A stretch of 64,000 bases of DNA from Monoplex corrugatus (Eukaryota; Mollusca; Gastropoda; Littorinimorpha; Ranellidae). Position numbers and translations under genes: made by a program. Below the pieces are notes generated by a model that had not been told where the DNA came from, did no database searches, and saw nothing but the letters and a program-made list of their open reading frames with translations. The stretch lies in the NCBI GenBank assembly GCA_030674185.1, contig JAPXFY010000022.1, forward strand, positions 38,922,130 through 38,986,129, in the 5' to 3' direction. The number at the start of each line of letters is the position of its first letter. The stretch's first letter is position 1. Positions 1,756 to 37,100 of this stretch are shown here, piece by piece.

Positions 1756-1895
1756 GTGTGTGTGTGCGTGTGTGTGTTTGTGGGCGTGTGTGTGCGTGCT
1801 TGTGATTTCGGTTATATGTTTTGCCATTGTTAACGCCTAGGGCATTAATTTGATTAGGCGTACTAAATGTTCATAATAATAATAATAATAATAAT
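1586..1895 (+). repeat. LINE-E 3' UTR with (TG)n tract and ATA-rich tail
   Basis: A C-rich spacer is followed by a (TG)n microsatellite (about 1674-1800), then ATTTGATTAGGCGTACTAAA and an (ATA)n tail ending near 1895. A related tail in reverse orientation, with TATATAGCGC, occurs at 52172-52250. Confidence 0.6.
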
Positions 1896-3235
1896 ACACA
1901 TAATCAGACTTTGGACTCACCATGCAACACACACAATCAGACTTTGGACTCACCATGCAATACACATAATCAGACTTTGAACTCACCGTGCAATACACAT
2001 AATCAGACTTTGGACTCACCATGCAATAAACATAATCAGACTTTGGATTCACTGTGCAATAAACATAATCAGACTCTGGACTCACTGTGCAATACACATA
2101 ATCATATGTTGGACTCACCATGCATTACACATAATCAGACAACTCACCATGCAATACACATAATCAGACTTTGAACTCACCATGCAATACACATAATCAG
2201 ACTTTGAACTCACCATGGAATACACATAATCAGACTTTGAACTCACCATGGAATACACACAATCAGACTTTGGACTCACCGTGGAATACACATAATCAGA
2301 CTTTGAACTCACCATGGAATACACACATCAGACTTTGGACTCACCGTGGAATACACATAATCAGACTTTGAACTCACCATGGAATACACACAATCAGACT
2401 TTGAACTCACCATGCAATACACATAATCAGACTTTGAACTCACCATGGAATACACACAATCAGACTTTGGACTCACCGTGGAATACACATAATCAGACTT
2501 CGGACTCAATGTGCATTAGACATAATCAACTTAAGACTCACCGGGCAATACACATAATCAGACTTTGGACTCACCGCACAATAAACATAATCAGACTTTG
2601 GACTCACCATGCATTACACATAATCAGACTTCGGACTCACCATACATTACACATAATCAGACTGAACTCGCCATGTATTACACATAATCAGACTTTGGAC
2701 TCATCGTGCATTACACATAATCAGACTGAACTCACCATGCATTATACATAATCAGACTGAACTCGCCATGTATTACACATAATCAGACTGAACTCACCAT
2801 ACATTACACATAATCAGACTGAACTCGCCATGTATTACACATAATCAGACTTTGGACTCATCGTGCATTACACATAATCAGACTGAACTCACCATGCAAT
2901 ACACATCAGACTTTGGCCTCACCATGCATTACACATAATCACTTTGGACTCACTGTGCATTACACATAATCAGGCTCTGACCTCACCATGCAATACACAT
3001 AGTCAGACTTTGGACTCACCATGCAATACACATAATCAGACTTTGGACTCACCATGCAATACACATCAGACTTTGGCCTCACCGTGCATTACACATAATC
3101 AGACTGAACTCACCGTGCAATACACATAATCAGACTTTGGACTCACCATGTAATACACATAGTCAGACTTTGGACTCACCGTGCAATACACATAATCAGA
3201 CTTTGGACTCACCATGCAATACACACAATCAAACA
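1896..3235. repeat. 33-bp minisatellite, about 40 units
   Basis: The unit is about ACACATAATCAGACTTTGG plus ACTCACCATGCAAT (33 bp; some units 30 or 31). Because 33 is divisible by 3, short open frames appear on both strands; these are not genes. Variants alternate CATGCAAT, CATGGAAT and CATGCATT in blocks, showing local homogenisation. It probably lies in the DNA2 intron after exon 13. Confidence 0.9.
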
Positions 3236-5388: not shown

Positions 5389-5478
5389 CTGTCCTTTGTG
5401 CTCTGCGGAGTAAGATGCCCTGCCTGTCTTCAGTTCCAGGGGTACCACCTTCCTCCTTACGCTGCCCTGCTTCACCAT
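5389..5478 (-). CDS. DNA2: DNA2 exon 13: catalytic Glu/Lys
   Basis: 90 nt, 30 codons, phase 0 on both sides, acceptor GTTACAG at the edge of the 31-bp minisatellite, donor GTGAGG. It encodes VVPLELKTGRASYSAEHKGQ, matching human [20 protein letters not shown]. E993 and K995 are the nuclease E-x-K pair. No later DNA2 exon is visible to the left. Confidence 0.95.
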
Positions 5479-8400
5479 CTGTAACATGTACACCATGTTG
5501 ATTTTGTATCTGTAATATGTACACCATGTTGATTTTGTGTCTGTAACATGTACATCATGTTGATTTTGTATCTGTAACATGTACACCATGTTGATTTTGT
5601 GTCTGTAACATGTACATCATGTTGATTTTGTATCTGTAACATGTACACCATGTTGATTTTGTGTCTGTAACATGTACATCATGTTGATTTTGTGTCTGTA
5701 ACATGTACATCATGTTGATGTTGTATCTGTAACATGTACATCATGTTGATTTTGTGTCTGCACATGTACATCATGTTGATTTTGTATCTGTAACATGTAC
5801 ATCATGTTGATTTTGTATCTGTAACATGTACATCATGTTGATTTTGTGTCTGTAACATATACACCATGTTGATTTTGTGTCTCTATCGAGTATACCATGT
5901 TGATTTTGTGTCTGTAATATGTACACCATGTTGATTTTGTGTCTGTAATATGTACACCATGTTGATTTTGTGTCTGTAATATGTACACCATGTTGATTTT
6001 GTGTCTGTAATATGTACACCATGTTGATTATGTGTCTGTAATATGTACAACATGTTGATTTTGTGTCTGTAACATGTACACCATGTTGATTTTGTGTCTG
6101 TAACATGTACACCATGTTGATTTTGTGTCTGTAATATGTACAACATGTTGATTTTGTGTCTGTAACATGTACACCATGTTGATTTTGTGTCTATAACATG
6201 TACACCATGTTGATTTTGTGTCTGTAACATGTACATCCATGTTGATTTTGTGTCTGTAATATGTACAACATGTTGATTTTGTGTCTGTAACATGTACACC
6301 ATGTTGATTTTGTGTCTGTAAATGTACACCATGTTGATTTTGTGTCTGTAATATGTACACCATGTTGATTTTGTGTCTGTAACATGTACACCATGTTGAT
6401 TTTGTGTCTGTAACATGTACACCATGTTGATTTTGTGTCTGTAAATGTACAACATGTTGATTTTGTGTCTGTAACATGTACACCATGTTGATTTTGTGTC
6501 TATAACATGTACACCATGTTGATTTTGTGTCTGTAACATGTACACCATGTTGATTTTGTGTCTATAACATGTACACCATGTTGATTTTGTGTCTGTAACA
6601 TGTACACCATGTTGATTTTGTGTCTGTAACATGTACACCATGTTGATTTTGTGTCTGTAACATGTACACCATGTTGATTTTGTGTCTGTAACTGTACACC
6701 ATGTTGATTTTGTGTCTGTAACATGTACACCACGTCACTTTTGTGTCGTAACATGTACACACATCACTTTTGTATCTGTAACATGTACACCACGTCACTT
6801 TTGTATCTGTAACATGTACACCATGTCACTTTTGTATCTGTAACATATACACCATGTCACTTTTGTATCTGTAACATTAACACCATGTCACTTTTGTATC
6901 TGTAACATGTACACTATGTACTTTTGTATCTGTAACATGTACACCAGTCACTTTTGTATCTGTAACATGTACACCATGTACTTTTGTATCTGTAACATGT
7001 ACACCATGTCACTTTTGTATTGTACATGTACACATGTTTACTTTTGTATCTGTAACATATACACCACATCACTTTTGTATCTGTAACATATACACCACAT
7101 CACTTTTGTATTTGTAACATATACACCCATCACTTTTGTATCTGTAACATATACACCAATCACTTTTGTATCTGTAACATATACACCACATCACTTTTGT
7201 ATTTGTAACATATACACATCACTTTTGTACATGTATACGTCACTTTTGTATCTGTAACATATACACCACATCACTTTTGTATCTGTAACATATACACCAC
7301 ATCACTTTTGTATCTGTAACATATACACCACATCACTTTTGTATTTGTAACATATACACCACGTCACTTTTGTATCTGTAACATATACACCATGTCACTT
7401 TTGTATCTGTAACATATACACCACATCACTTTTGTATCTGTAACATATACACCACGTCACTTTTGTATCTGTAGCATATACACCATGTCACTTTTGTATC
7501 TGTAATATGTACACCATGTCACTTTTGTATCTGTAACATGTACACCATGTCACTTTTGTATCTGTAACATGTACACCATGTCACTTTTGTATCTGTAACA
7601 TGTACACCATGTCACTTTTGTATCTGTAACATGTACACCATGTCACTTTTGTATCTGTAATATGTACACCATGTCACTTTTGTATCTGTAACATGTACAC
7701 CATGTCACTTTTGTATCTGTAACATGTACACCATGTCACTTTTGTATCTGTAACATGTACACCACGTTACTTTTGTATCTGTAACATGTACACCATGTCA
7801 CTTTTGTATATGTAACATGTACACCACATCACTTTTGTATATGCAACATGTGCACATCATTACTTTTGTATCTGTAACATGTACACCATGTTAGTTTTGT
7901 AACATGTACACCGTGTCACTTTTGTATCTGTAACATGTACACGTCACTTTTGTATCTGTAACATGTACACCATGTTACTTTTGTATCTGTAACATGTACA
8001 CCACATCACTTTTGTATCTGTAACATGTACACCATGTTACTTTTGTATCTGTAACATGTACACCATGTTACTTTTGTATCTGTAACATGTCATTTTGTAT
8101 CTGTAACATGTATACTACATCGTTTTGGTATCTGTGAGGTGCTGTATCTATAATGAGACAAAAAATGAATGATGACTAGGTCTGAATGATGGACCAGTCG
8201 GTCATGGTGTAGCGGTGAATGCAATGGAAAGTTGAGGGTTCAAATTCCCCCTCCCCATCAATCCCTTCAAAAATCATTGTGGGATTTGTCAGTGTTGTTC
8301 TTTTAAAAACGCAGAAGACATAACTACAAAGGTCATATCCAATTAACCCTTTCACTCCTGCACCCTATCCAACAGCTGCTAAAAACCTAACATTTTCACT

Positions 8401-11400
8401 CCCTCACCCTATCCACCAGCTTCCCACAAGAAGCTGGTAGATAGGGTGAGGGAATGAAAGGGTTAAGTTTTTACTAAGTTTCTGCTTTGCTGTACTGGCT
8501 GATAATACAGGCAGCTGGAGTATAGGGTGAGGAAGTCAAAGGGTTAATGTACTCACCTCAACTTCCACTGTCATATCGATTTTTCCTTTCACACCAATTC
8601 TGAAAAAAGGGAGAAAAGTTTTTTGAAAACTTCAACAAACATATACTTTTTTCTTTCATCCGGAATCTACAGAAACAGCATTATCACATCTCTCATTGAA
8701 ACAGACCTGCAGAATAGTTCAGACATAACAATCAAACAGGCAAATCAACAAACCAACAAAAACAAATAAATATGGGCAACCTTCAAAACATCATAAACAA
8801 ACAAGTAAATTATATAAACAGCCTTCAAAACACCCTAAACAAACAGGCAAATCAACAAACAAAAACAAATAAATATGGACAGCCTTCAAAACATCATAAA
8901 CAAACAGGCAAATCAACAAATAACAGAAACAAATAAATATAAATAGCCTTCAAAACATCTTAAACATACATGCAAATCAACAAACAAACAAAAACAAATG
9001 AATATGGACAACATTCAAAACATCATAAACATACAGGCAAATCAACAAAAACAAACGAATATGGACAGCCTTCAAAACAGCATAAACAAACAGGCAAATC
9101 AACAAAAACAAATAAATATGAAGAGCCTTCAAAACATCACAAACATGCAAATCAACAAATAACAGAAACAAATAAACATAAGAGCCTTTAAAACACCACA
9201 AACATGCAAATCAACAAACAACAGAAACAAACAAATATAAACAGCCTTCAAAACATAAACATACAGGCAAATCAACAAAAACAAATAAACATGGACAGCC
9301 TTCAAAACATCATAAACAAACAGGCAAATCAACAAAAACAAATAAATATGGACAGCCTTCAAAACAGCATAAACAAACAGGCAAATCAACAAACCAACAA
9401 AAACAAATGAATATGAACAGCCTTCAAAACATAAATACACAGGCAAATCAACAAAAACAAATAAATATGAACAGCCTTCAAAACATAAATACACAGGCAA
9501 ATCAACAAAAACAAATAAATATGGACAGCCTTCAAAACATTATAAACAAACAGGCAAATCAACAAAAACAAATAAATATGGACAGCCTTCAAAACATAAA
9601 TACACAGGCAAATCAACAAAAACAAATAAATATGGACAGCCTTCAAAACATTATAAACAAACAGGCAAATCAACAAAAACAAATAAATATGGACAGCCTT
9701 CAAAACATTATAAACAAACAGGCAAATCAACAAAAACAAATAAATATGAACAGCCTTCAAAACATAAATACACAGGCAAATCAACAAAAACAAATAAATA
9801 TGGACAGCCTTCAAAACATTATAAACAAACAGGCAAATCAACAAAAACAAATAAATATGGACAGCCTTCAAAACATTATAAACAAACAGGCAAATCAACA
9901 AAAACAAATAAATATGGACAGCCTTCAAAACATTATAAACAAACAGGCAAATCAACAAAAACAAATACACATAAAGGAAAACTAGAAAAAAAAAAAAAAG
10001 GGAATGTAAACAAACCTTGGGGACCAAATGGTTTCCTCAATATCATGGATCTGGACAACGTTGACATCACCAACACCATCACCACACCTGTATGTTGAAT
10101 AGATAAACACATAAATAGATTGATACTGTTAGTTTTGTTTAAAGCCCAGCTGACTGCACAGAGCCATATCACGGCTATAACCGTTTCAAAATACACACAA
10201 TACTTCAACAAGAAAAAAGAAAGGAAAAGAAAATTCAGTACACATATCACTGTCTTTGCACACATAATCTAAGGAGATGCCCCTGGGTTGAGCACTCTGT
10301 CCAATTTACCACATAGGGGATTTAAAAAACATACATGAATAAAAATTTAAACATTACAAAGGACACTAAAACATACATAAAAACAGGCCTAAATTACCTA
10401 AAATTGCTTCCGCATACCTCATTTCCCCGAGAACCAAAAACACACTTAATACATGCACCCAATTACCAATCCTAAGAGATAGTATCTAAGACTTTATCGA
10501 ACACATACAGGTGAAATAGACCAGCAAGGCAGAAAATCATAGGATGAAATGACAGAAAGCAAAGGAGGAAGAAAGAAACAAAAGAGAGTGAAAGAAAAAA
10601 AAGGAAATTTCGAGCACAGAATTTCCAGAAGGTGGGGATACTGTTTATACTGAAAGAGCCCCTGGCATCCCCACAGGGGGAACATTTAAGTAAAGAAAAG
10701 GTTTTCCCACAACAGTGATGCAGCAGAAGAGTGAAGAGGTACAGACTTAAGTTTTCTTAGGTTCTTATACTGAAAGAGCCCCCGGCATCCCCACAGGGGT
10801 AGAAAAAGATAGTAGTCCAGAAAGGAGAGTGTTGCAGTAATGAAGACAAGACAAAATGAAAGATGTCACAAGTTCATGGCAGGTGGAAGAAACAGGAAGA
10901 AAAAAACGGTCACATTCATAGACAGATGTGACCTGACCATGCAGAGGCAAACGAAAGAAGGAGAAAATGGCTGATGCTTGTTACCTGTTGCCAGTGCCGG
11001 AGACAGTGACGGAAGGTACATGTTTAAACAGCCAAGTCTGGAGTGGACCGATATACTGTTCCACCTCCTCCATCACTCTCTCCTCACTCACACACTGTCC
11101 GTACCTGTTGAAACACAACAACAATAATAAGAACAATTAACAACTAGACCTTGCTAGAGTATAGGGTATGTGAACTTGCGCAGGCTTAAGGAATAATGCC
11201 AAATAGTTGTCAGCAGATTTGGGTGGAGCGCATATGGAACTGTCCAAGTGCGATGAATCCCTCTTGACCACACTTTGAACCCCAATAACATCTACAAGGC
11301 AAAGCCAGAACAAGATTGAGGCAATTGAAATGTGGTTTCTGAGAAGAACATTAAGATTTCCATGGACAGCAAAGAAAACAAATGAGACAGTCTTGAAGGA

Positions 11401-14400
11401 GGCAGACAGAAGATCATTAATGAAGATTAGAAAAAGACAAGCAACAACATTTATAGGACATTTTATTAGGCGAGAGAGATTAGAGCACCTGGTCACAATA
11501 GGAAAGCTGGAGGGAAAGGGAACACAAGGTAGACCCAGGGAGAAAACATTGTATAGACTTGCAGAGTGGCTGAGGACAGAGAGGGTGGGGAGATGAACTT
11601 GCAGCGACAAGGGATAGATTAGTACGGAGGGCCATGATCGCCAATGCCAGACGGCAGGGCGCATGATGATGACTATACCTTGCTGTTCACTAAAAGTCAT
11701 TCACAATGACACAAACAACACAAGGGTATATGAAACATGCACATATCGGGAAAGAGAGTACAGGAGAGGAACAGGATGGAGGGGTGTGATGGCATCACTG
11801 CCTACCCCAAAATGCTGTTTTCAGGAATCGCACCCCTCAACTCTCTCCCTCACCGGGATCGGCTGAAGGAGCCACTCTCAACCTCAAAAGTCTTCTCCAG
11901 GTCAGACATCTGAGACATCTGTGAGCGACCTCCTGGATCCCCAGACCACAGACTTAGCGATGTTGTTGAAATAAGAGGTGTGCGGTCGTCCCTTTCTTCT
12001 CCTCACCTCAACTTTCCCCTGCAGGACTGTTGACATCAGATCTGTTCTGGTGTTTCTGATCGCATGGCCTACGTATTTCAACTTTCTTTTGTTGATCGCT
12101 GTCAGCAGCTGAGGCCTGACATTCAGTACCATCATCATAGCAGTGTTTCACGGTCGCGGACACTCCCTCCCCAGTAGCTTTTGAAGCCTGTCCATCCCTG
12201 GGGGTCTTAGAAGGTCCAGTCCTATAACCTTTTGTTTCTTTGATCTCATCTCACATGGTTTTTGACAGAAACACAACCAGTGGTCTGTCATTGCCTTTTG
12301 GAATGGCAGTGCACATACTGTGCGGAGGCTCTGGCCATTGTTGTTTTCAGGAATAAGCACCTTTACAATCGGGAACATGGAACACATTAGCAAACACATC
12401 ATCATCATCATGTGCCCTGCCACATGGCGTTGGCGATCATGGCCCTCCATATGCATCTATCCCTTGTTGCCACAAGCACATCATCCACCCTCTCTGTCCT
12501 CAGCCACCCTGCAAGTCTGTTCAATATTTTCTCCCTGGGTCTGCCTGGTGTTCTCTTTCCCTCCAGCTTTCCTGTTCTGACCAGGTGCTCTAATTCCCTT
12601 TTCCTCATAAAATGGCCTATAATTTTTTCCAATCTAACCAGCAAAACTCGGTCTGACACAGCCCAGTATCCTTTAACGGCTTTTGACTTGTCCCTTTCTA
12701 TCATGACGCCTACTCCTCTTTCATGTGTGTTTCCACCAGAATATACTATTGTATGTGTGCCTGATGTTATCATGCCTGCCCCCTTCCATCTCACCTCAAA
12801 CACAAACACATCACAAACGTTATTTGACAGAATCAGTCACTACTTTAATGAAAGCAACCACAATTTCACACAGCAGCTATCAGCAATGCTTTCATTCAAT
12901 GCACATTGCATTCGGCCAGCATCTGAAAGTTGGCGCCATTCTCGCCAAATATCTTCTGCCACTGTCTGAAAACTTTGATCAGTTCAGCGAAAAGTGTGCT
13001 TGCTCTGTAAAATGACATACACAAAAAAATCGAGCACAGTGTTACAGAAATACAGTTATTTACCAACCCTTCTGGAAAAACAAAAATGGAATTGGACCTT
13101 TTTTGTTTTCCCAGAACGGTCGATAAATAACTTATCTCCTCATCACTGTGCTCGATTTGATGTGAATCCTGAATAGATACGAGCTCCCAGACTCTGTTTC
13201 AGTTTCAGTTTCTAAAGACGTCTCTGCACTCGGAACGAATTCCATATACACTAAGTCACAGGTGCCATGTGTATGGTGACTATGACATGTCTTAAGCCTG
13301 CACATAAACCCATGAGCTGGCTAGGTCCTGTTTACCTAGTCTATATTTCTTATACTAGTATTGTATCAGCCTATCATTGGTACAATCATGTATATCTGTG
13401 TATCTTATCTTCAAAAAATAGGAACATATATATAAATTAAGTAAAAAAAATAACTAAAGGTCTGAATCACAACCAACTCTGAAACAGCACAGAAATAGGA
13501 CAAAAAAACAAAACAAAAAAAGAAGTCTGTAACTCACATATCATGAAGGAATTTGTTGGACTGGACGATGGATTTGGCCACAGCGCGGATCTCCTCTGTC
13601 TTGCTCAGTCTGTCCTTCAGTACCTGAAAGACATAAAAAAAAAAGAACACGTCCCAACTGGGTTTTTTTTCTTTTAACTTTTCTCCCAAGTTTTCCTATT
13701 CAAATTTTTGTGTCCTTGGACGACATCAGATATTCAGAGTGCTTAAAAAGGCATTTTCTGCATTATTTTTCTTTTTACAACCACTTAACAAATGCAGAAA
13801 TTATACTCATTATACTTACTCCACTTTGAAAGAAAAAGGAGCTGGATATGGATTTTCTAAGGAAAGGATCCACATAATCTGAGGATCTCACCTGTCTCAC
13901 CTGTTGGCATCACCGGGTTCAGCGTTGGCCGCTGCACTCTGACACAACTACCCTCCTCCAAACGGCTGTCTTGACTTTTGTGGACAACTTCTCGAACATT
14001 TAGACCACTGATGTTGATTATGTTTCTTGATATATGAAATTGGAGGTTTGCCTTTTGTCCTTTTTGCCTATGTTTTTCCTTGAAAAATGGTTGTTGTGAG
14101 GTCTGTGTTCTCACTACATGACACATGTGCATGCATACATGTGTGTAGGTGATTAGCCATAAGCTGTTTATATATTTACTTGTTTGTATAGTTGTTATGG
14201 ACACCAAGAACTTAAACCAAGGCACACCATAAATCCTGTTATCATTATCATCCCAAAAAACATAATAACCCAGTCTCGAAGCACAACACACTGACTAACC
14301 TGCTGGAAGAGGCTGTGGATAATACTGCCATACAGCATATGGGCATTCTTGCTCTCTATGCCCTGCACACACAAGTTAACATCGTTTAGCTTAAACTATT

Positions 14401-17400
14401 TGAATATTATGGCTGTCATACACATACACATAGGACATTCTTGCTGTCTATTCCCTGCACACAAGTTAATATCATTTCGCTTACTTTATGTGGATATTAT
14501 GGCTGTCGTACACATACACATAGCACATTCATGCTGTCTATTCCCTGCACACAAGTTAACATCCTTCCGCTTACATTATGTGGACATTACAGCTGTCGTA
14601 CACATACACATAGCACATTCATGCTGTCTATTTCCTGCACACAAGTTAACATCGCTCTGCTTACATTATGTGGATATTACAGCTGTCGTACACATACACA
14701 TAGCACATTCTGGCCGTCTATTCCCTGCACACAAGTTAACATCGCTCTGCTTACATTATGTGGATATTACAGCTGTCGTACACATACACATAGCACATTC
14801 TGGCTGTCTATTTCCTGCACACAAGTTAACATTCTTCCGCTTACATTATGTGGATATTACAGCTGTCGTACACATACACATAGCACATTCTGGCTGTCTA
14901 TTTCCTGCACACAAGTTAACATTCTTCCGCTTACATTATGTGGATATTACAGCTGTCGTACACATACACATAGCGCACTCTTACAGTCTATTTCCTGCAC
15001 ACAAGTTAACATCGTTCTGCTTACATTATGTGGATATTATGGCTGTCATACACAGACACATAGGGCCTTTAAGTGGAGCACAATTGGAATTGTCTGAGCA
15101 TGATGAATCTCTCTTGAAAAACTCCAGACTCTGAATTCCACTTATCATCATGATTAAGCCTTTGACTCCAGCCGCCTTTCCACCAACTGCAAAAACCTGA
15201 CCCTTTCACTCTCTCACCTTATCCACCGGCTTCCTGCTGGAAGCTGGTGGAAAGGGTAAGGGTATCAAAGGGTTAAGTTTTTGCTTTGCTAGCATAGTTG
15301 GTAATTTTGCTTTGCTAACATAGTTGGTAATGCAGGATGCTGGTGGACAGGATGTGGGAATCAAAGGGTTAAAATTCAATACAGAAGAAGTAACAGCAAT
15401 TTCATCAGTAAAAAGAAAAAACATATATAATATATATATTTATGATAACAAAACATTAATAATTATTTTTGTTTAAAGCCAGCCGACTGCGTAGAGCCAT
15501 ATCAGGGCTATAACTGTATATACACAATAATCCAACAGGGGAAAATGAAGAAGAAAAAAAAATGAGAAGAAGGAAAAGAAAATTAAGTACACATATCAAT
15601 GCATTTGTGCACATAATCCAAGGAGATGCCCCTGGCGTTGACCACCCCATCCAATTTATCACACAGGGAATTTAGAAAACATATCTGACTACAAATTTAA
15701 ACATAGCTAAGGACACTAAAACAAATATAAAGATATGCCTAAATTACCTAGAATATTGCTTCTGTTTTGTTTTGTTTTTAGAGTAAAACGGTTGGAAAAA
15801 CAAAAAAGTTTTTACTCACCTTGAACTTTTCATTCAAAACAGACCTGAAACATAAAGCTGACATTATAAGAAAAAAATTGACATTATCATGGATTGCATG
15901 GAGTAAAATATGTGACACAGAATGGGGAAAACCTTGATAGTGACGCTGCCAGCCAGCCATAGCTATGCTAAAAACAGAGTAAGTCTTTTGGCCATAAGTT
16001 TAAACCAGGATAACACCTACGTAAAACCTAGAGAGCAGAAGTCAGAGGTACCAGGCCTGCAGACATCTTGTAACAAACCATGGTACCCTGCAATAGAACA
16101 GGGCTGAAGTCAGAAGTACCAGGCCTGCAGGCGTCTTCTAACAAACCATGGTACCATGCAATATAACAGGGCTGAAGTCAGAGGTACCAGGCCTGCAGGC
16201 GTCTTCTAACAAACCATGGTACCATGCAATATAAAGCAAATGTTAATGCAGCCATCTTCATCAGACGAGAATGATTCTCATCCGCTGAGGTCCCCCTAAA
16301 GCACGAGTGTTATTGCTGTTTAACGCCCAGCCGACTGTGTAGAGCCATATCAGGGCTATGTGTATAACCGCCTCAAAATATACACAATACTTCAACAGGA
16401 AAAAAAAAAAGAAAATTAAGTACACATATCAATGCATTCATGCACATAATCTAAGGACATGACCCTGGCGCTTACCACTCCATCCAATTTATTACACAGG
16501 GTATTTAAAAAACACACCTGAATACAAATTTAAGCATACCTAAGGACACAAAACATATATAAAAATGGGCATAAATTACTCAAAATTGCTTCCGCATATA
16601 TCTCACCTCCCTAGAGCCAAAAATACACTTAATACATATACCCAATTATCAATCCTAAGAAAAAGTACATCAGACTTTATGGAGCACACACAGGTGATGG
16701 ACCAGCAAGGCAAAAAATGATAGGAAGAAATGACAGAAAGCAAAGGAACAAGGCAGAAACAAAGAGAGTGAAAGAAAAGATGAAACTTCTGGCTCAGAAG
16801 GTGGGGTACTATCTATACTAAAAGAGCCCCCGGGGGGCCTTAAGCATGAAGGGTCATGCGGATAAACATGACAGCCAGCAAGAACTGAAGTAGAGGTCAC
16901 ATTCATTGATAGGTATGGTGATCGTGGAGATGGTGAACAATTATCATCACCATTAACATTTAAAGCCAAGCCAACTGAGCAGAGAGCTATAACCACTTCA
17001 AACACACATAACTCCTCGCTGACCTTGAAAGAAAAATCAACACCTGGAAAAGAAAATAATCATATCAATGCATTCACACACATAATCTAAGCATATGGCC
17101 CTGGCGCTGACCATTCCGCCCCACTCATTACCCAGGACTTCAAAGAAACAAACCTGAATACAAATGTACAAACATAACTGAAGATGCTAAAACATATATT
17201 AAAAACTAACCTAAATTACCTGAAATTGCTTCTATATATGACATTTCCCTAGAGCCAAAAATGCAGTAAATACATGTACCCAATTATCATTCCTAACAGA
17301 AAGTATGTAAGGTTTTACATAATACATACACATCACACTTCCCTTAGAGCCAAAAATGCACTCCATACATGTACACAATTATTAGTCCTGATAGAAAGTA

Positions 17401-18686
17401 TGTAAGGCTTTATAGAATACATACATGTACATCAGTGTCATCACATTTCCTTACAAAATGCAGTTAATACATGGACCCAATTATTAACCCAAACAGTGTC
17501 TAAAGCTTTAACCCTTTGACTCCCACACCCTACCCACCAATTGCAAAAACTTAACACTTTGACTTTCTCACCCTATCCACCAGCTTCCTGGGTGAGGGAA
17601 TCAAAGGCTTAAGTGTTTGCTTTGCTAGCATGGTTGACAATACAGGATGCTGGTAGACAGGGTATGGGAGTCAAAGGGTTGAAGAACACATACAGGTGAA
17701 AGGACCAGCAAGGCAGAAAATGGAAGGAAGAAATGACAGAAAGCAAAAGAGCAAGGAAAAAACACAGACATTGACAGAAAAGACGAAATCTGTAGCACAG
17801 AATTTCCAGAAGGTGGGCATATTATCTCTACTGAATGAGCCCCCGGCATCCCCACAGGACAGCAAAGAAAGAAAGAAAGAAAAAAGTTGTCAAAGAGTGA
17901 ATAGTCCACAAAAACACGCAGTGACCTATGACACTCACCTCCTGAGACAATAGACACCTGACACAATCGTCGTCCCTGAAAGCAGCAGGTCAGGGTTTAC
18001 GACAATCTGACCCTGGCTGTCATCAATGATGACTGAACGGTCGTCCTTTCCATGTCTACCGCCACGACCAGAGGCCAGTTGCTCATCGTCCAGTAGCAAA
18101 TGTACAACGTCGCCTGGGTCTACATGTGTGTCTGACCTGTGAGACAAAGCAGGCTGGGACTGAACTCAAAATATACATCTTGAGTCCACAGTTCTATCAA
18201 AAGAACCAACCAGCTTACAGGATTTGTCCGGAAGTGTGTGTATTCAACATACTGTGTCACCTCACTGTATGTATGAACTCTCTCTCTATATATATATATA
18301 TATAAGAGGCATTCAGGATTTTGGTTTGGAAATAGCTTGTTTTTGCAGATGCAATGAGGGTGGATATATCTTTCTTTCTTTCTATCTCTCTCTTTCTCTC
18401 TCTCTTATACATGCACACACATATATATATATACTAACATGCAAACACACACACACAGACTACACAGAAACACACACATTCAAAATGAGACAAAAGTACA
18501 AACAAAAACTCTCATAATGAGACATATGCACATGTAGACATTCACAGATACTCAAACACACATACACATGTATACACACACATACACATCCCCCAAACAT
18601 ACACACACATACCCACACACACTCACACATACCCACACACACGCGTGCACACACACACACACACACACAACAACACATACATACAC

Positions 18687-18729
<43 letters not shown>

Positions 18730-18899
18730 TACACACATACATACACACACACATACATACACACATACATACACACACACACACACACATCCCCCAAACA
18801 TACACACACACACACACGTGCACACACACACGCGTGCGCACGCACGCACGCGCTGCGCACGCACGCACGCACGCGTGCGCACAGCACACCGCACACACA

Positions 18900-18961
<62 letters not shown>

Positions 18962-21746
18962 TCTATAAAAACGTAACAGCATAAAAGCCTGTACATGTAT
19001 GTAGTGTGGTTCTAACGTGAGATGTTCTGATAGTTTGTCACAATGGGTCCTCACCAGAATCCTTGCAGTCTGGCATTTCTGATCACCTCACTGCTCCCTT
19101 TCTCAGACAGCCCCAGAACTTTATTGTGAGACTCCCTGAAACAACACATCATCAACAGTCATTAGAAGTAACCAGACAAAACACACAAAAAAAGAATCGT
19201 TATTGTTATTGTCATTGCTACTGTTGTTTAAAGCCAAGCCGACTGGGTACAGCCATATCAGGGCAATAACCGGTTCAAAACATACACAACACTTCAACAA
19301 GAGAAAAGGAAAAGAAAATTAAGTACATCTATCAATGCATTCGTGCACATAATCTAAGGACATGCCCCTGGCACTGACCATTCTGCCTAATTTACTGGGC
19401 ATAGGGATTAAAAAACATACCTGAATACCAATTAAAACATAAACAAGGATACTAATAATACATAAAAATGGGCCTAAATTACCTAAAATTGCTTCTGCAT
19501 ATCTCATTTCCCTAGAGCCAAAAATGCACTTAACACATGTACCCAATTATCAATTCTGAAAGAAAGTAAGACTTTATTGAACACATGCAGGTGAATGGAC
19601 CAACAAGGCAGAACATGATAGGAAGAAATGACAGAAAGCAAAGGAGGAAGAAAGAAACAAAAAGTGACAGAAAAGAGGAAATTTCTAGCACAGAACTTCC
19701 CGAAGGTGGGGATACTTTTTTTACTGAAAGAGCCTCCGACATCCCCATGGGGGGACAAAAAAGAAAACAAAAAAGAATCATAAAGTGTATTTAAGACAAC
19801 CAGATAAGACAGGCACAAATTTTCGGCCAACTTGCTTTTGCCAAATGTTGATGTAAGATCACAAAAAACAGACACCAAATACAAACATAAGGAGAAAAAG
19901 ACTGAAACTTCCCTGCTGCTTCTTACATCTACGCTTGACAAAGACCAGTTGGCCAAAAATTTGTGCCTGTCTTATCTGGTTGAATTAAATACACATTCTG
20001 ATTCTGTTTTCGTGTTTTTTTCTGGTTCCTGTTTTTGCTTGAACGCGGGCAGTCACACTTATTTTGGACTAACGATACAAGCTCTTTCCAAAATATCAAA
20101 AGAGGAGTCAGGCAAGGTTGTGTTTTGTCACCAGATCTGTTTTCACTTTACAGCGAAAACATCATCATAACCTAGAATACCCTGAATTAAAGGTGGAGGA
20201 AAAATGATAAACAACATTCGATACGCAGATGACACCGTGCTAATTGCAGAAAATGAAAGGGGCCTACAAAAACTTGTGAATATAATAGAAATAGAAAGCA
20301 AAAGTTAAGGATTGGAGCTAAATAGCAAGAAGACTGAAGTCATGATAATCAGTAAAAAACATGAAATCCCCTCATACAAAAAAAATAGCAAACAGCACAA
20401 CCTTGAGACAGGTTGATAAGTTTAAATATCTGGGAACGATCATCTCACCTGACGGCAGACGCACATCAGAAATAGCCAGCAGAATCGGCCAAGCCAAAAC
20501 ACCATTCAAGAAGATGAAAAGCATTCTTACCAACAAATGCCTATTAATTAAAATCAGGAAGAAATTGATAATGATAATATTAATGATATGGGGAGGCGGT
20601 GGAGACGGAGAACAAGAAAAGAGAGGAAGAGGAGAATGACTGCGGCTTAGACAAAAAAACTGCTGTGAAAAAAAGAAATGTACATGCCTTATGATTTGGG
20701 TTACTGTTCACATGAACACAGATGTAAACAAAATATCCAACAGTTCCAACCGCTGAGTCTCCAAGCCTTCAATGATGAAGAAAAAGAAGACGACAACAAA
20801 GAAGAAGTAGAAGAAGAAAAAGAAGAAGAACAAGAACAAGAACAAGAAGAACAAGACCAAGATGAAAAAGAAGACGATGAAAAAGTACAAGAAGAAGAAA
20901 AGAAGAAAAGTCGAAGACGAAAATGAAGACGAAGACGATAAAGAAGAAGGATCATGTTATACAGTACATCCAATCCATATTATTAAGCACATTTGCAACA
21001 CTTTACACACAAAAAACTTTTTTTTAAACAAATTAACACAAAAAATTCGGGGGTGGGGATACCATTTATACTGAAAGAGCCCCCATCATCCCCACAGGGG
21101 GGAAACACTCACCTGTCTATGGTCACACTGCGAACTACATATCTGTTCCACTTGTCAGTAAACTTGACGCCTGGCTCAGTTTGTTGGGAGATCTTGTTCG
21201 TCTTACTACAGGGGGAAACTGCCAGCCTTTCTCTTTAGAAGATACGAACAAAGCATTGTTTGCTCAAATGTATGTATATAGGTTAGATAACATCTTACCA
21301 ATCATTTCTGCTCTAAACAAAAAGAGCTGAAATACAGACAGAAAATTGAAGAACACAACACAAAAAAATCAAGAGTAACTGTATTACATTTCTAGCAGAC
21401 TGGTTGTTTTATTCTTTGATTATTGATTCCCTCTTTGCAAATCAATCAATGACTTTTCATTCTTATAATGTCGATTTTGTTGGTGGCAATGACGATGTAA
21501 AGGTTTCTGTATTTGTGTTGTATGCCTTACTCTAACAGCTTGGGCCTATTATTGTTGTCGACTTTGGAAGTGTTGCAGCTAACTGGTTGATATCTGTTTG
21601 GCCTCTTTGTATAAATTTCATTTCACAGCTCTTTTTGCATGTTTTCATATTTCTCTTAGATTGAAACATGTTTGATGTTTGACTGTAAATGACATTGTGT
21701 ATTGTAAAAAAAAAATGATAAAGGAAGTTTGTGTAACTGTGTATGT

Positions 21747-21832
<86 letters not shown>

Positions 21833-21952
21833 TGTGTGTGTTGTGAGTATGGTGTGTGTGTGTGTGTGTGTATGCGTGTGTGTATGCATGTATGTATGTG
21901 TGTATGTGTGTATGTGCATGTGTTGTGTGTGTGTGTGTGTGCATGCGTGCGC

Positions 21953-22042
<90 letters not shown>

Positions 22043-22223
22043 GTGAGTATGGTGTGTGTGTGTGTATCTCTCTCTCTCTGTTGTGAGTATGGTGTATGTG
22101 TTGTGAGTGTGTGTGTGTGTGTCTGTGTGTGTTGTGAGTATGGTGTGCATGTGTGTGTGTATGTGTGTGTATGTGTGTGTGTGTGTTGTGATGTGTGTGG
22201 TGTGTGTTGTGTGTGTTGTGTGT

Positions 22224-22266
<43 letters not shown>

Positions 22267-22351
22267 TTGGGATGTGTGTTGTGTGGTGTGTGTTGTGAGT
22301 TAGTGTGGTGTGTGTGTGTGTGTGTTGGTGTTGTGGTGTGTGTGGTGTGTG

Positions 22352-22390
<39 letters not shown>

Positions 22391-22486
22391 GTGTGTGTGT
22401 GTGGTGTGTGTGTCTGTTGTGGTAGTGTGTGTATGTATGTGTGATGTGTAGTTGTGTTGTGTGTGTGTGTGTGTGTTGGTGTGTGT

Positions 22487-22525
<39 letters not shown>

Positions 22526-22623
22526 TGTGTGTGTGGTTGTGAGTATGGTGTGTGTATGTATGTGTGTATGTATGTATGACTATGGCTTGTGTGTGTTTGT
22601 GTGTGTTGTGAGTATGGTGTGTG

Positions 22624-22669
<46 letters not shown>

Positions 22670-22726
22670 TGTGTTGTGTGTTGTGTGCATGTGTGATGTG
22701 TGTGTGAGCTGGTGTGTGTGTGTGTG

Positions 22727-22779
<53 letters not shown>

Positions 22780-25700
22780 TGGTGTGTGTGTGTGGTGTGT
22801 TGTGTGTGAGTGGTTGTGTGGTGTGCAGCGTGCGTGCGTGCGTGCGTGCGTGCGTGGTGTGTGTGTGTGTGTGTGTGCGTGTGTGCATCAGGTGACAGGT
22901 GATGGAAAAGATCCACAATGATTATGGCACAAGCCTTAAGCCAGCACATAAACCCATGAGCTGGTCAGGTCCTGAGGTCTTACCTAGCCTATGTTTTACC
23001 TAGGCTACATAAATCAGTGACTTAGGGAAACATGAAAACACCAAGCATGCACACCCACTGAAGATGGAGTATGCAGACTATGCAGCAACATATCGCCTGC
23101 ATAGTGTGGGCAAAACAATGAGCATACAAGTATTCAAGAAAAACTGGATTGCTTTGATTTTTTTTTAAAAAGTAATATGGTAAAGAGTTAAGAAATATGA
23201 AAAGTTTAAATTCATGTTTGAAAAAAATTCAAGAATGATACTTTCCAAAACTGTCAGTGTGAAAGTCTAAAAAAAGCATTTTATTTGTACACACACACAC
23301 AATACATACACAAGCACAAACATAAACACATGATAAACATAACACACACACAAACACACTTGCACAAACACACACACACACAAAAACACACACACACACA
23401 CATACACACACGCACGCGCACACACACACACAACACACACATACCACTCACTCACACACCAACTTTTAGTCCTAAAAAAACACCCACCTTGCTGAAACTC
23501 GACTTTTAAATGGGGACAGTTGTTGAAAGCTTCCAGCAAGGTCCTTGTCTATAGGGTCCTCCGCCTCGACAGTCAGACACTCTCTCCTGTTAGGACTAGG
23601 AGTCCTAGGGCTCTCCATCTCTATCACCATATGTTCTCCCTTTGTCTCGGCTGGCACAGATTCACAGTACGCCCCATCATTATCAGTAACGTCTTTAAAC
23701 TCTGTGGAAATGTTTTTGCCTGAGTAAACACGAAGTTCACGACTTTTCACATCTGTGGAGACATGTTCTAAATGAGTTATTGGTTCATGATCTTTGCAAT
23801 CTGTGGAATTATGTCCTCCTGAGTGACTATTATGCCTATGGCATTTCAAATCTGTGGAGATGTGTTTTTCTGAGTGAGGTTGAGGTCCAGTCTTCGTCTC
23901 AAGCATATTTTTGGACTTGGCGTTCTGGCAGCAAATTTCTCCTCTTGCTGATGTACCATCACCATTTTTGGAATGAGAAATGTATGCTTTTTTGCTTCTT
24001 TCGCCAACTGAAATATTGTCACCGTTCGTTACCAGAGGAATGCCCAATTTCTGGCTTTCTTGTCCACTCTTGTTTGTTGCTCTGTCAATACCGTGAATGT
24101 TGGAGTTTGGTTTGTGTGGTTGTCTGTGTGTGTTGCTGTCTGGGCACAAAGTGTTGCCTAGTTCACCTAGAATCTCTGCCAAGACGTCATCTTCTGTAGT
24201 GTCGATAGGAGATTCTATGTCCATGGGCTGTTCTTTAAAAGGGTTCTCAGTCACGACGGGGTTGCTGTGTTTCTGTGTGTGGGCGTTGTGGTTTTTGTTC
24301 CCTGACGATGTGGACAAGGCGGTGGTGTTCATCTGTCCCAGAATGTCTGCCAGGACGAGATCCTGGGTGCAGGAGACGTCCATGTCTGTCGTGCTGCTCT
24401 TCCTCCCTCCCAGCTGGTACTTGTTGACCTGCTGGTTCATCTCTCTCACGTCCTTGAACCCTGCCATGGAGGCCAGCTGTCGTTTGGCCTTCACCTTGCG
24501 CTGTGAGGTCGTCATTTCCAAGCTTTCGCCGTCGTCAGTTACTGTGGTTTCTGTTCCTTGCAACCGTTTGGGGTCGGGTGACAAACCCGATACTGCCATC
24601 CGCTTGACAGAGTTGCGGTCAACGGAGGTTTTGGTCGGGGTCAGGGACTGTGTGGGGACATCTTTCGCCGCGTGGGTCCCTGTCTGATTATTGGGTGGTT
24701 TTGCTGATTCCACACTTGATGTTAAAGTCTGATTATTGGGTGGTTTTGTTGATTCCATGGTTAACAGTAAAGTCTGATCGTTTTGTGGCTTTGTTGATTC
24801 CACAGTTGATGATAAAGTCTCTGAATTTGTTGATCTTGTGAAGGATGGTGATATATCAGATTCCATGTCAAAATCAGTGAAATCCACATCTTCCTCAACA
24901 CTCACCTCACCTGCCCTGGAATCTGTGTCAGGACAAGACGTCAATAACACACTTACTGCTGCTGGGGGTTCTGGCGTTGCCTCACTCACAACCATAGAAT
25001 TTTCCTCCATCTTTGTTTCTGTGTGATCTGACGTAGCGTCATCCATCATCACAGACTTTTCCCTCGTCTTTAATTCCATCTTTCCCTCGTCAGTTAACCC
25101 TTTCTGACCAAACTCCACACTCACAAGGCCTAAAGATTTTTTCACCACTTTTCTCGGCTTTGTTTTCGGAGGGGAGGGTTTTTTACCGGGCATGGTGGAC
25201 AGCTGGGAAACGGGGCAGAGAAAGCTTCGACTGACGAATCTGGAGTGAGGTTTCTGTCGTTTGTCTTCAGGGGTATCGGGTATGATCACAACATCCTGCT
25301 CTGAGGATTCCACAGACCCTGATTTTTGCGTTCTTTCATGTTGGGACGTAATGTTGTTGAAATTCTTCAAAACTGTCATGGAATTCTTGCCGCCATCCAA
25401 GTGTACTTTCTGTGCTGATTTGGTGTTGGAAGCATTGGTGGCATTGGTGGTGTTAGTGGTGGGGTCTGGTTTGGATACAGCGGTCTGTCGTTTTAAGGAC
25501 AGGGGTGGCCTGGATTTTGACACATTGCTGAACAGCTTGCTCTGTGCTTGCTCTGTGCCTGGCTGTGATATGAAACAGACAGAGAAACAAGATGAACAGA
25601 CATCACTGTGATATGAAACAGGCAGAAACAAGATGAACAGACAGCTCTGTGATATGAAACAGACAGAAAAACAAGATGAACAGACATCACTGTGATATGA

Positions 25701-27912
25701 AACAGACAGAAACAAGATGGACAGCACTGTGATATGAAACAGACAAAGAAACAAGATGAACAGACAGCTCTGTGATATGAAACAGACAGAAACAATATGA
25801 ACACAGTTCTGTGATATGAAACAGGCAGAAACAAGATGAACAGACATCACTGTGATATGAAACAGGCAGAAACAAGATGAACAGACAGCACTGTGATATG
25901 AAACAAAGAAACAAGATGAACAGACAGCACTGTAATATGAAACAGGCAGAAACAAGATGAACAGACAGCACTGTGATATGAAACAAAGAAACAAGATGAA
26001 CAGACATCACTGATATGAAACAGGCAGAAACAAGATGAACAGACAGCACTGTGATATGAAACAAAGAAACAAGATGAACAGACAGCACTGTAATATGAAA
26101 CAGGCAGAAACAAGATGAACAGACAGCACTGTGATATGAAACAGGCAGAAACAAGATGAACAGACAGCACTGTAATATGAAACAGGCAGAAACAAGATGA
26201 CCAGACAGCACTGTGATATGAAACAGGCAGAAACAAGATGAACAGACAGACAGCACTGTGATATGAAACAAAGAAACAAGATGAACAGACAGCACTGTAA
26301 TATGAAACAGACAGAAACAAGATGAACAGACAGCTCTGTGATATGAAACAGACAGAGAAACAAGATGACCAGACAGTTCTGTGATATGAAACAGACAGAA
26401 ACAAGATGAACAGACAGCTCTGTGATATGAAACAGAGAAACAAGATGAACAGACAGCACTGTGATATGAAACAGACAGAAACAAGATGAACAGACAGCTC
26501 TGTGATATGAAACAGAGAAACAAGATGACCAGACAGCTCTGTGATATGAAACAGACAGAAACAAGATGAACAGACAGCTCTGTGATATGAAACAGAGAAA
26601 CAAGATGAACAGACAGCTCTGTAATATGAAACGGAAACAAGATGAACAGACAGCTCTGTAATATGAAACAGACAGAGAAACAAGATGAACAGACAGCTCT
26701 GTGATATGAAACGGAAACAAGATGAACAGACAGCTCTGTGATATGAAATAAGATGAACAGACAGCTCTGTAATATGAAACAAACAGAGAAACAAGACGAA
26801 CAGACAGCTCTGTAATATGAAACAGACAGAGAAACAAGATGAACAGACAGCTCTGTAATATGAAACAGACAGAGAAACAAGATGAACAGACAGCTCTGTG
26901 ATATGAAACAAACAGAGAAACAAGATGAACAGACAGCTCTGTAATATGAAACAGACAGAGAAACAAGATGAACAGACAGCTCTGTAATATGAAACAGACA
27001 GAGAAACAAGATGAACAGACAGCTCTGTAATATGAAACAGACAGAGAAACAAGATGAACAGACAGCTCTGTAATATGAAACGGAAACAAGATGAACAGAC
27101 AGCTCTGTGAGTGTGATATGAATTAGAGAAACAAGATGAACAGACAGCTCTGTAATATGAAACAGAGAAACAAGATGAGCAGACAGCACTGTGATATGAA
27201 ACAGACAGAGAAACAAGATGAGCAGACAGCTCTATTATATGAAACAGACAGAAACAAGATGAACAGACATCTCTGTGATTTGAAACAGAAACAAGATGAA
27301 CAGACATCTCTGTGATACGAAACAGGGAAACAAGACAAACAGACAGCTCTGTGCCTGGCTGTGATGTGAAACAGAGAAACAAGATGAACAGACCAATAAT
27401 AACAATAACAATAATAAAAATAACAACAAAATTAATAAAATCAATCATCGGTGTATACTTTCACTAACCAATGAAGAAAGTATGCAGACTATGCAGCAGC
27501 ATTAAACCTGCATATTCTACACCCGATATCCACAATAAGAAGCATCACACATACAAACACCACACATACAAACACCACACACACACACACACACACACAC
27601 ACAACACACACACACACACACACAAGCATACACAGCATACACACACACACATGCTCACTCACACACACACACAGCATACACACACACAAATGTACATTGC
27701 ATACACACACAAACATATACAGTATATACACACATACCACTCACAAATACACACACACACACACAAAGTACACAGTACTACACCCACACAAACACACACA
27801 CAGCATACACACACAAATGTACATACACATACATACACAAACACACACAAACACACAGTACACACACACACATACATATGCTCACACAGACACAAACACA
27901 CACACATGCTCT

Positions 27913-34081: not shown

Positions 34082-34144
<63 letters not shown>

Positions 34145-37100
34145 CCCCACACACACACAACACACACACAGTGACATACCTGGAAAAAGGAAGAGATTTT
34201 CTGCTGAGAACCATCCTGTAAGTGAAACACATAAAACAAATATCAGCAACTGGTGGAAAAATACTGTCCTTGTATGAATGCTTTACAAAACATTTCATCA
34301 AGGACAAAAAGAAAAACGATTTTTTCCCAAAGTACCATTGTACCCAGGCAGCCCTGTCTGTGTTCACTTCTCCCCTCTTAGCCCCCCCCCCCCCCCCCCA
34401 TTTTCTATACCACGATGAAGATGATAAGTATGATGCTCCGGAGTTCTGCCTAGGATAGAGACTATGTGACAATGTGACATGGCTCCATGCTTACAACCAT
34501 AACAATATATCCTGGTGTCACCAGGCCCAAGACATACAAACACCTGCAGCATTGGTCAAGAGATTTCAACACCATCCCCAATGACACATCCCTGAAGTGG
34601 ATCAGACTCAACTGTGTGGTCCCAATCTTCCCAGTGAGCCCACGGCACGCTCAGCTCTGTGGGTAGCAGCCACATAGGGTTGAAAAATTCCACAGTGATT
34701 TTTGAAGGGATTGATGAGGATTTGAACCCACAACCTTCCAATCGGAAGTTTGTTGTGCTATCCACTACACCATGGTGACTGGTACTAAAAACAATCGCTG
34801 GACGGGCATGGCATACGGGACGATTTGGTTCTTTGTCTTTTTAACCCTTTCACTCTTGCACCCTATCCATCAACAGCAAAAAACTTAACCTTTTGATACC
34901 CTCATCCTATCCACCAGCTTCCTGCAGTTTAGCTCAACTACTTCTATAAATACTGCCATGTGTGTGTGTGTGTGTCTGTGTGTGTGTGTGTGTGCGCGCT
35001 TTATCTGCGAGTGTGTGTGAGTGAGTGAGTGAGTGAGTGAATGAGAGTGAATGTGTGTGTGTGTGCGTGCGTGTGCGTGCGTGCGTGCGTGTGTGTGTGT
35101 AAGTGTCTGAGTATGAATGAGTGTATCTGTTGTGTGTGACTCTTTCACTAGTTTCAGCACAATGAATTGTTTACAAAAATACACACACCACGAAAATACT
35201 GTTTGTCTTTTCTTTCAATGGTTAAAGTAGTGAAAATGAGTATATCATAGATCCTGGATTCTAATCCACCCTGACACCTCCACCTGGTTGGTAAAGGATG
35301 GAGATTTTTCCTATCTCCCAGGTCAACATGTGTGTAGACCTGCCAGTGCCTAAACTCCCTTCAAGGATATACATGCAGAATATCATATATGCCTGTTTAA
35401 CCCTTTGACTCCCGCACCCTATCCACCAGCATCCTGCACTGTCTAGCACACAAAAACGTAACCCTCTGACTCCCTCAACCTATCCACCAGCTTTCTGCAG
35501 GGAGCTAGTGGATAGGGTAAGAAAGTCGAAGGGTTAAGTTTTTGCAGTTGGTGGATAGGGTGCGGGAGTCAATGGGTTAACCCTTTGACTCTTGCACCTG
35601 TCCACCAGCATCCTGCAATTGTCAACCATGCTAGCCAAGCAAAAACTTAACCATCTGACTCCTTCACCCTGTCCACCAGCCTCCTGCTTTTGTCAACCAC
35701 GCTAGCAAGCATAAACTTATTCCTTTGACTCCCGCACCTGTCCAACAGCATCCTGCATTGTCAACCATGCTAGCAAAGCAAAACCTTAACCCTTTGACTC
35801 CCTCACCCTACAGGAAGTTGGTGGAGGGGATGAGGAGCCAGAGGGTTAAGTTTTTGCAGTTGTTGGATAGGGTACGGGAATCAAAGGGTTAAGATCCTGC
35901 AAATCATGTCAGCAGATGGCTTATGGAAACATGAAAACATCCAAAACACACACCCGATGATGAGTATGCACGTGTGGCAACATATCGTCTGTTCAGTGTT
36001 GGCAAGACCCAGGAGATATGGCCAACTACAACTCCTTACTTTCAACAAATAACCACAAACAAATTGTGATAATGAGGAAACAAAGATAGCCTTAAAGTGG
36101 AGTTCCCTTGTATATTTTAGGAAGTGTCACCCATAATAATGACGTCATCGCTGATAGTCGTCATTTCCGCTTCGTTGATCTGGTAACCACCAAATAATTT
36201 AGCGAAAAGAAGCGACTTTAAATCGTATCCTTTTTGGAGGCAACATTTCAGGTAAATGTATAGTATTTTATCGATAAATAAATGGAATTTATAAATAGTT
36301 AAGATTTGGAATCATTGCAATGATCGTTGTTATGAAAACATCTCCAAGGCAGCGATCACCACAATCTAAATTTCTAACATCTAGATCTAAATACATTTTG
36401 TCGTAGATCACAAAATATCGAGTTTCACATAAATCAGATGAATGATTTAGAATTATTTCATAAAATTTAGAATTATTTCATCAATATTTTGAAGTAGTGA
36501 CGACCACTGCCATGGCTGTTGCCCTGGAATAAGCCATTCTGTTGATTTGCCGCCATGGCAGTGTGTACATTGTTGTCAAAGAAATTGCTGGGTGCCTCAA
36601 ATATAAGCAGATCCTCTTAGGTTCTCGGGAGATGAGATGACGATGAATGATTAAATCGTTGAGACGTCCGATCCACTGGTTGCCTGCTTTGAGTCTGGAA
36701 TGTGTGATGCATTGAGTCTGTCAGCTTCTCCGAACTCATAGGGTTCACAAAACCCACCTCATCTGCGCCCCACAACATTTTGGTGTCAGAAATGGGATTC
36801 ATTGATTCAATTGAAGTTTCGTGGGATTCGAATGAAGTTTCGTGGGATTCGATTGAAGTTTCTACAGAGAAAAAGACAGACTCTGCATTACATATTTTGG
36901 GTTTGAAGCGGGCGATTGGAGGTGAAGATGGAACAACGTCCATGCCTCGGTGGCAAGAACCAACCTCTTTTCAGCGACGGAGAAGCTACACCCCAACAAT
37001 ATTTTAAAGCCTACAAACTCAGAAAATTTCATAGAAGAATTTACAAGAGAAGCACGCCTGATTCTACAATTTCAACCGCTGTCAGACAGGGCCGCCGCCA

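Follow-up and report, generated by a model that had tools for sequence, protein, structure and literature searches.

Minisatellites at three 3′ splice sites of a snail DNA2 gene: probable origin by tandem duplication across intron–exon borders

As an earlier note on this DNA had claimed, three minisatellites with unrelated units (43, 31 and 90 bp) adjoin the 3′ splice sites of exons; the gene is real, that of DNA2 in a caenogastropod snail, and the array edges lie at 0, −2 and −19 nt from the acceptor, respectively, negative values being inside the exon. We consider it likely that these exon-bordering arrays are minisatellites of the type named mirages in amphioxus, and that they arose from tandem duplication across 3′ splice sites and were later amplified. 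The evidence for this origin comes from one gene in one haplotype, read as genomic sequence.

The minus strand of the window (the whole 64-kb stretch of DNA that was analyzed) carries the 5′ part of the gene for DNA2, a replication helicase/nuclease, and was mapped from the start codon to exon 13; exons are numbered as in the earlier note, exon 11 being the same in both. Exons 3–13 form a single open frame of 991 amino acids in which every border is GT/AG, and the nuclease part of the model matches mouse DNA2 (5ean) with an E value of 7e-39. Babylonia DNA2 is the top match among 69 homologs, with 68% identity over the searched region, and is followed by those of Littorina, Batillaria and Nucella; we take all four genera to be caenogastropods. 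When the Babylonia protein was used as tblastn query, 11 of the 13 exons were matched, exons 3, 8 and 13 included. Exon 7 (25 nt) gave a weak tblastn match with Nucella only (E 8.7), and exon 1 gave none with any of the snail query proteins. Located by pattern, the coding part of exon 1, from start codon to donor, is probably the minus-strand segment 47301–47342 (ATG...CCAGAG/gtaggt); joined in frame to exon 2 it yields MKRSTKKNKLPKPE-DGSQQKISSFFQ, which resembles the Babylonia start MKRSTSKKDGQQKPEDGTQQKISSFFQ. Exon 2 (34180–34215, minus strand; acag/GATG...CCAG/gtatgt) was matched by tblastn as QDGSQQKISSFFQ with three of the four snail proteins (E 0.09–0.21). Exon 3 (23488–25562, minus strand), the acceptor of which adjoins the 43-bp array, is an open frame with GT/AG borders, and the same segment is present in snail homologs (FFQPGQAQSKLF in Babylonia). 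Exon 8 (14300–14362, minus strand) was identified from its open frame and by tblastn, and its peptide matches Pfam Dna2 with an E value of 0.0023, under the family cut-off. For exon 13 (5389–5478, minus strand) an open frame, the 5ean match and tblastn coincide; as the tblastn matches overrun its border by 27 nt into the array, the border is based on joining to exon 12 in frame.

Array extents were taken from TRF edges and wrap-around alignment, and identity to the unit is 89–93% across the four long arrays, all of them given on the minus strand. The edge of the 43-bp array (25563–27393, 42.6 copies) coincides exactly with the exon 3 acceptor. The 90-bp array (8.2 copies; 14344–15063 by TRF edges, the alignment reaching 14329) extends 19 nt inside exon 8, and the 31-bp array (5477–8090, 84.3 copies) overlaps exon 13 by 2 nt. 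Intron 11 holds the fourth long array, which has a 57-bp unit (8749–9967, 21.4 copies) and is separated from the exon 11 donor by 48 nt and from the exon 12 acceptor by 149 nt. With five shorter arrays, the nearest splice site of which is at least 193 nt away, nine arrays were counted, and the three arrays of intron 1 and exon 1 were included in the null. The count excludes repeats totalling less than 130 bp, dinucleotide tracts and the minisatellite rows within them, a GAA repeat, a 45-bp repeat within the exon 3 coding sequence and a 33-bp array beyond exon 13.

That three of the intronic minisatellites abut acceptors, out of four long ones or nine in the full count, is unlikely by chance. 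Under uniform placement over the 12 introns, the probability of at least three arrays lying within 5 nt of an acceptor is 2.3e-8 when the long arrays alone are considered, and 5.9e-7 when all nine are. As arrays grow by insertion, a fairer null is one in which introns are collapsed to their pre-array length and seeds may span the border. When seeds could fall in any intron, this null gave P values of 1.5e-6 (13-nt seed span) and 9.6e-6 (30-nt span) for four arrays, and of 3.0e-5 and 1.9e-4, respectively, for nine; when each array was kept in its own intron, the values were 9.7e-5 and 5.2e-4 for four arrays and 3.0e-4 and 1.6e-3 for nine. The harshest null is thus that of the own intron with the 30-nt span, the sole span wide enough for the 19 exonic nt of the 90-bp array. 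All these P values are conditional on the pattern having been picked in the earlier note.

It had also been claimed that each unit repeats the acceptor of its exon. This is true but trivial, since no array can reach the edge of an exon without including the acceptor; because that property follows from abutment, only exon-derived bases within the units are independent evidence, and such bases were found in two of the three abutting arrays, those of exons 3 and 8. An ungapped search for copies of the junctions within 2.5 kb gave best scores of 28/30 for exon 3, 20/30 for exon 8 and 24/30 for exon 13, while among the other nine acceptors and the 12 donors (exons 2–13) no junction copy above 18/30 was found within that distance. 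The value for exon 8 barely exceeds this background, its low score resulting from a 2-nt length difference beside the AG.

In the 90-bp array, all seven units contain, together with the acceptor, a copy of the 19 nt with which exon 8 opens, identical at 13–17 of these positions; its units, spanning the border and carrying exon sequence, have the makeup that defines the mirage class. The likeness declines outward from the exon (17, 16, 15, 15, 15, 15 and 13), and as the best match to the 19-mer elsewhere in the 64 kb, on both strands, is 14/19, the outermost unit taken by itself is not above chance. Where exon 8 has GAG (Glu), all seven units have GAC (Asp). At this site, the 30 pattern-matching homologs of the 69 have Asp in 24 cases, Glu in four and Gly in two, and Asp is present in nine of ten aligned proteins, including all four caenogastropods holding the segment; Glu is present in Biomphalaria. 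Asp being usual in the relatives and its codon being present in every unit, the array probably retains an older exon codon and, as far as can be read from the codons, probably preserves older exon 8 sequence, although the Glu found in some homologs is a counterpoint to this reading.

The evidence from exon 3 is located at the far end of the array. The outermost 43-bp copy, 1.8 kb from the exon, includes the 18-mer CACAG+CCAGGCACAGAGC (27346–27363, minus strand), in which CACAG is followed by 13 nt identical to the exon 3 start. Two occurrences of this 18-mer were counted in the window; no other site matches it better than 13/18. Of the copies in this array, the outermost alone holds the exon sequence. 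In the typical unit, CACAG-AGC stands where the exon start reads CACAG-CCAGGCACAG-AGC; the 10 bp flanked by the two CACAG direct repeats of the exon 3 start are missing from it. As the PG residues at the exon 3 start are common to the Babylonia and Nucella proteins, copying probably went from exon to array, and sequence was probably passed from exon 3 into the 43-bp array. Two further repeats are present in this exon. At its start, adjoining the array, an 11-nt tandem repeat, GCACAGAGCAA x2, occupies positions 25537–25558; the DNA2 protein is there two residues longer than that of Babylonia and not longer than those of Nucella and Littorina, and an insertion in exon 3 was rejected, the latter two proteins being equally long there. 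A 45-bp tandem repeat of 3.1 copies lies within the coding sequence (24682–24820), and the Babylonia and Littorina proteins are gapped around it.

The 31-bp array shares 2 nt (AT) in register with exon 13. The first six bases of the exon (ATGGTG) recur within the unit, a 6-mer coincidence expected at 1.5% of positions, and when exon-13-derived bases were sought in this array, none were found beyond these 2 nt and the chance-level 6-mer. Its position makes it a probable mirage. The 27 nt before exon 13, in the last array unit (5479–5505), match the end of exon 12 (8557–8583) at 13 of 27 positions in register, which is equalled at 1.3% of window positions; their first 12 nt match at 10 positions (0.07%), the 12-nt cut having been picked post hoc. 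This likeness is possibly a trace of the origin of the 31-bp unit, or chance.

Of the shared origin at splice sites that the earlier note had put forward, then, duplication is supported for the arrays of exons 3 and 8 and suggested by position for that of exon 13, and the donor case does not stand. The 57-bp array, which had been presented as resembling the exon 11 donor, begins 48 nt past it, and its likeness to that donor is indistinguishable from chance. The best ungapped likeness of the unit to the donor is 12/16, a value that 16% of random GT sites (n = 1500) and 57% of T-rich ones (n = 705) also reach. A 9-mer shared by array and donor is equalled by 4% of random and 17% of T-rich GT sites, and the exon 3 donor likewise shares a 9-mer with the array. 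As it did not exceed that of these controls, the likeness was rejected as a sign that the 57-bp array is a splice-site array.

Would a simpler account suffice for the three abutments? Chance combined with ascertainment, whereby the introns are rich in minisatellites and the earlier note picked a gene in which several of them touch exons, is in our opinion unlikely; six of the nine counted arrays touch no splice site, and the harshest null gives P values of 5e-4 to 2e-3, which are attainable if many windows are scanned, but chance would not place exon-like sequence in all seven 90-bp units or in the 43-bp copy farthest from exon 3. Quite improbable, too, is that arrays were seeded anywhere and spread until selection halted them at the exon, with no junction-spanning duplication. 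The 31-bp array suits this account, having 2 nt in common with exon 13 and occupying about 2612 of the 3078 nt of intron 12; however, tandem arrays grow via insertion and not by overwriting their flanks, the 90-bp array reaches 19 nt into coding sequence, and exon 3 bases are found 1.8 kb upstream of the exon.

The mechanism suggested in the earlier note, slippage in polypyrimidine tracts, finds no support, and we regard it as extremely improbable. Such tracts are available, nine of the 12 acceptors having at least 60% pyrimidine at positions −20 to −4, but the three array-bearing acceptors are poorer in pyrimidine than the other nine (mean 0.57 vs 0.73), a difference that is not significant (Mann–Whitney P 0.13), and the units are of 31–90 bp and of mixed sequence. 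Very doubtful, in turn, is a functional reading, in which minisatellites would often be born by junction duplication in animals well beyond amphioxus, and the acceptor arrays would offset weak pyrimidine tracts, so that alleles with arrays of different length would differ in DNA2 splicing.

Tandem duplication across 3′ splice sites, the origin we prefer, could have proceeded as follows. A short duplication would copy the intron end, the acceptor AG and the first exon nucleotides, a step for which exon-derived bases argue in exons 8 and 3, and position in exon 13. It would be tolerated by leaving one intact acceptor–exon border downstream. Being intronic from then on, the copies would multiply through the usual turnover of tandem repeats, for instance by slippage or unequal exchange. 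In the 43-bp unit, the 10 bp that are absent between the CACAG direct repeats may have been lost by deletion. Selection against splice-breaking arrays, also invoked in the earlier note, could explain the survival of only tolerable junction duplications, which we offer as a proposal.

The arrays hold many decoy acceptors. The AG is kept at 125 of 133 register positions (42/43 in the 43-bp, 7/7 in the 90-bp and 76/83 in the 31-bp array), and its conservation exceeds the unit average in all three acceptor arrays; hence there is no sign that decoys are purged, although homogenisation could mask purging. When the effect on the frame was computed, only five of the 125 decoys would lengthen the exon with the frame kept and no stop introduced (4/42 for exon 3, 0/7 for exon 8 and 1/76 for exon 13), and use of the remaining 120 would introduce a stop or a frame shift. 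Correct expression thus needs the exon-proximal site, and splicing, we infer from the frame effect, must mostly use that acceptor. With a weight matrix from the nine other acceptors, decoys score at least as high as the genuine site in 38 of 42 cases for exon 3 and 33 of 76 for exon 13, and in none of the seven for exon 8, the decoys of which score well under the genuine site.

Other repeats and elements were observed in the window. Intron 3 contains, on the sense strand, a GT-rich tract soon after its donor (23289–23459) and then an AC-rich repeat of about 1.1 kb (21738–22885), and it ends in an AAG acceptor, the sole one among the 12; judging from their composition, the two tracts could pair in RNA. 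Introns with AC–GT pairing have reportedly been described in fish, and no literature on them was found among the matches listed. Sense-strand GT-rich tracts also occur about 10 nt after the exon 2 donor (34083–34170) and about 97 nt after the exon 5 donor (18556–18958). Downstream of exon 13, the 33-bp array (1893–3231, 41 copies), in which the donor-like hexamer GTGAGT occurs 31 times on the strand of the gene, is located directly after an (AAT)n tract that follows a reverse-transcriptase-like frame. Between 28 and 64 kb, several long frames appear, by eye, retroelement-like. A stretch with gag-pol-like frames is flanked, at 36445–36493 and 46263–46311, by copies of one 20-bp repeat and by frames that are nearly identical to each other; by eye, these flanks look like the terminal repeats of a retroelement.

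Structures of this kind have been described in amphioxus. According to the available parts of two papers (PMC3087553, PMC3902484), the mirages of Adh3, the globins BflGb6 and BflGb9, TnC and PGBD5 are minisatellite-like tandem duplications across intron–exon borders, with variable unit length and with splice signals retained in many, not all, units; the end units of the BflGb6 mirage escape homogenisation, mRNA splicing is undisturbed, being regular by RT-PCR, and haplotype variation is reported. The Adh mirage goes back to Canestro et al. (2002), as quoted by the citing papers. The snail arrays resemble the mirages, as far as these sources describe them, in the kept AG and, at exons 3 and 8, in their border-spanning units. 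For the divergence of edge units, a mirage trait, the picture is mixed: the outermost units of the 43-bp array score 0.79 and 0.79, and the edge units of the 90-bp array 0.86 (inner) and 0.91 (outer), vs up to 0.97, but the trait is absent from the 31-bp array, with outer units of 0.9–1.0. They differ from those described in their mollusc host, in the presence of three acceptor-bordering arrays in one gene, and in copy number, which reaches about 84 in the snail whereas the BflGb6 haplotypes have 6 and 3. From the genomic sequence of one haplotype, we class the arrays of exons 3 and 8 as mirages, and that of exon 13 as a probable one.

More distant parallels are found in the parts available of other reports. 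In human, internal tandem repeats at exon–intron boundaries are relatives of these arrays, and minisatellite expansion there changes gene structure (PMC2812944); those repeats came from a search of segmental duplications, have about four units of 30 bp on average and formed novel introns, whereas in the snail the intron is already required by the model. The IFI6 (6-16) minisatellite supplies multiple splice donors (Turri et al., 1995, cited in PMC4526556). Its units carry splice sites, as in the snail, but these are used donors, in contrast to acceptor copies upstream of the exon. In the potato RdRp gene, an intron was gained through tandem genomic duplication (PMC4974935); both cases tie a within-gene tandem duplication to intron structure, but the snail duplication lengthens an intron already in the model. 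Among the matches listed, the name mirage was used only for amphioxus, and no mirage-like structure in molluscs appeared in their titles or abstract openings, a set in which subscription journals are thinly covered.

With two supported cases and a probable one in a single gene, the mirage structure is now seen in a mollusc. Fossil exon codons inside repeat units provide a sequence test for how such arrays begin, and exon-derived bases in the units, rather than mere abutment, are a clean criterion for a genome-wide search. If common, such duplications would be one mutational route to longer introns, to decoy splice sites and, possibly, to new introns.
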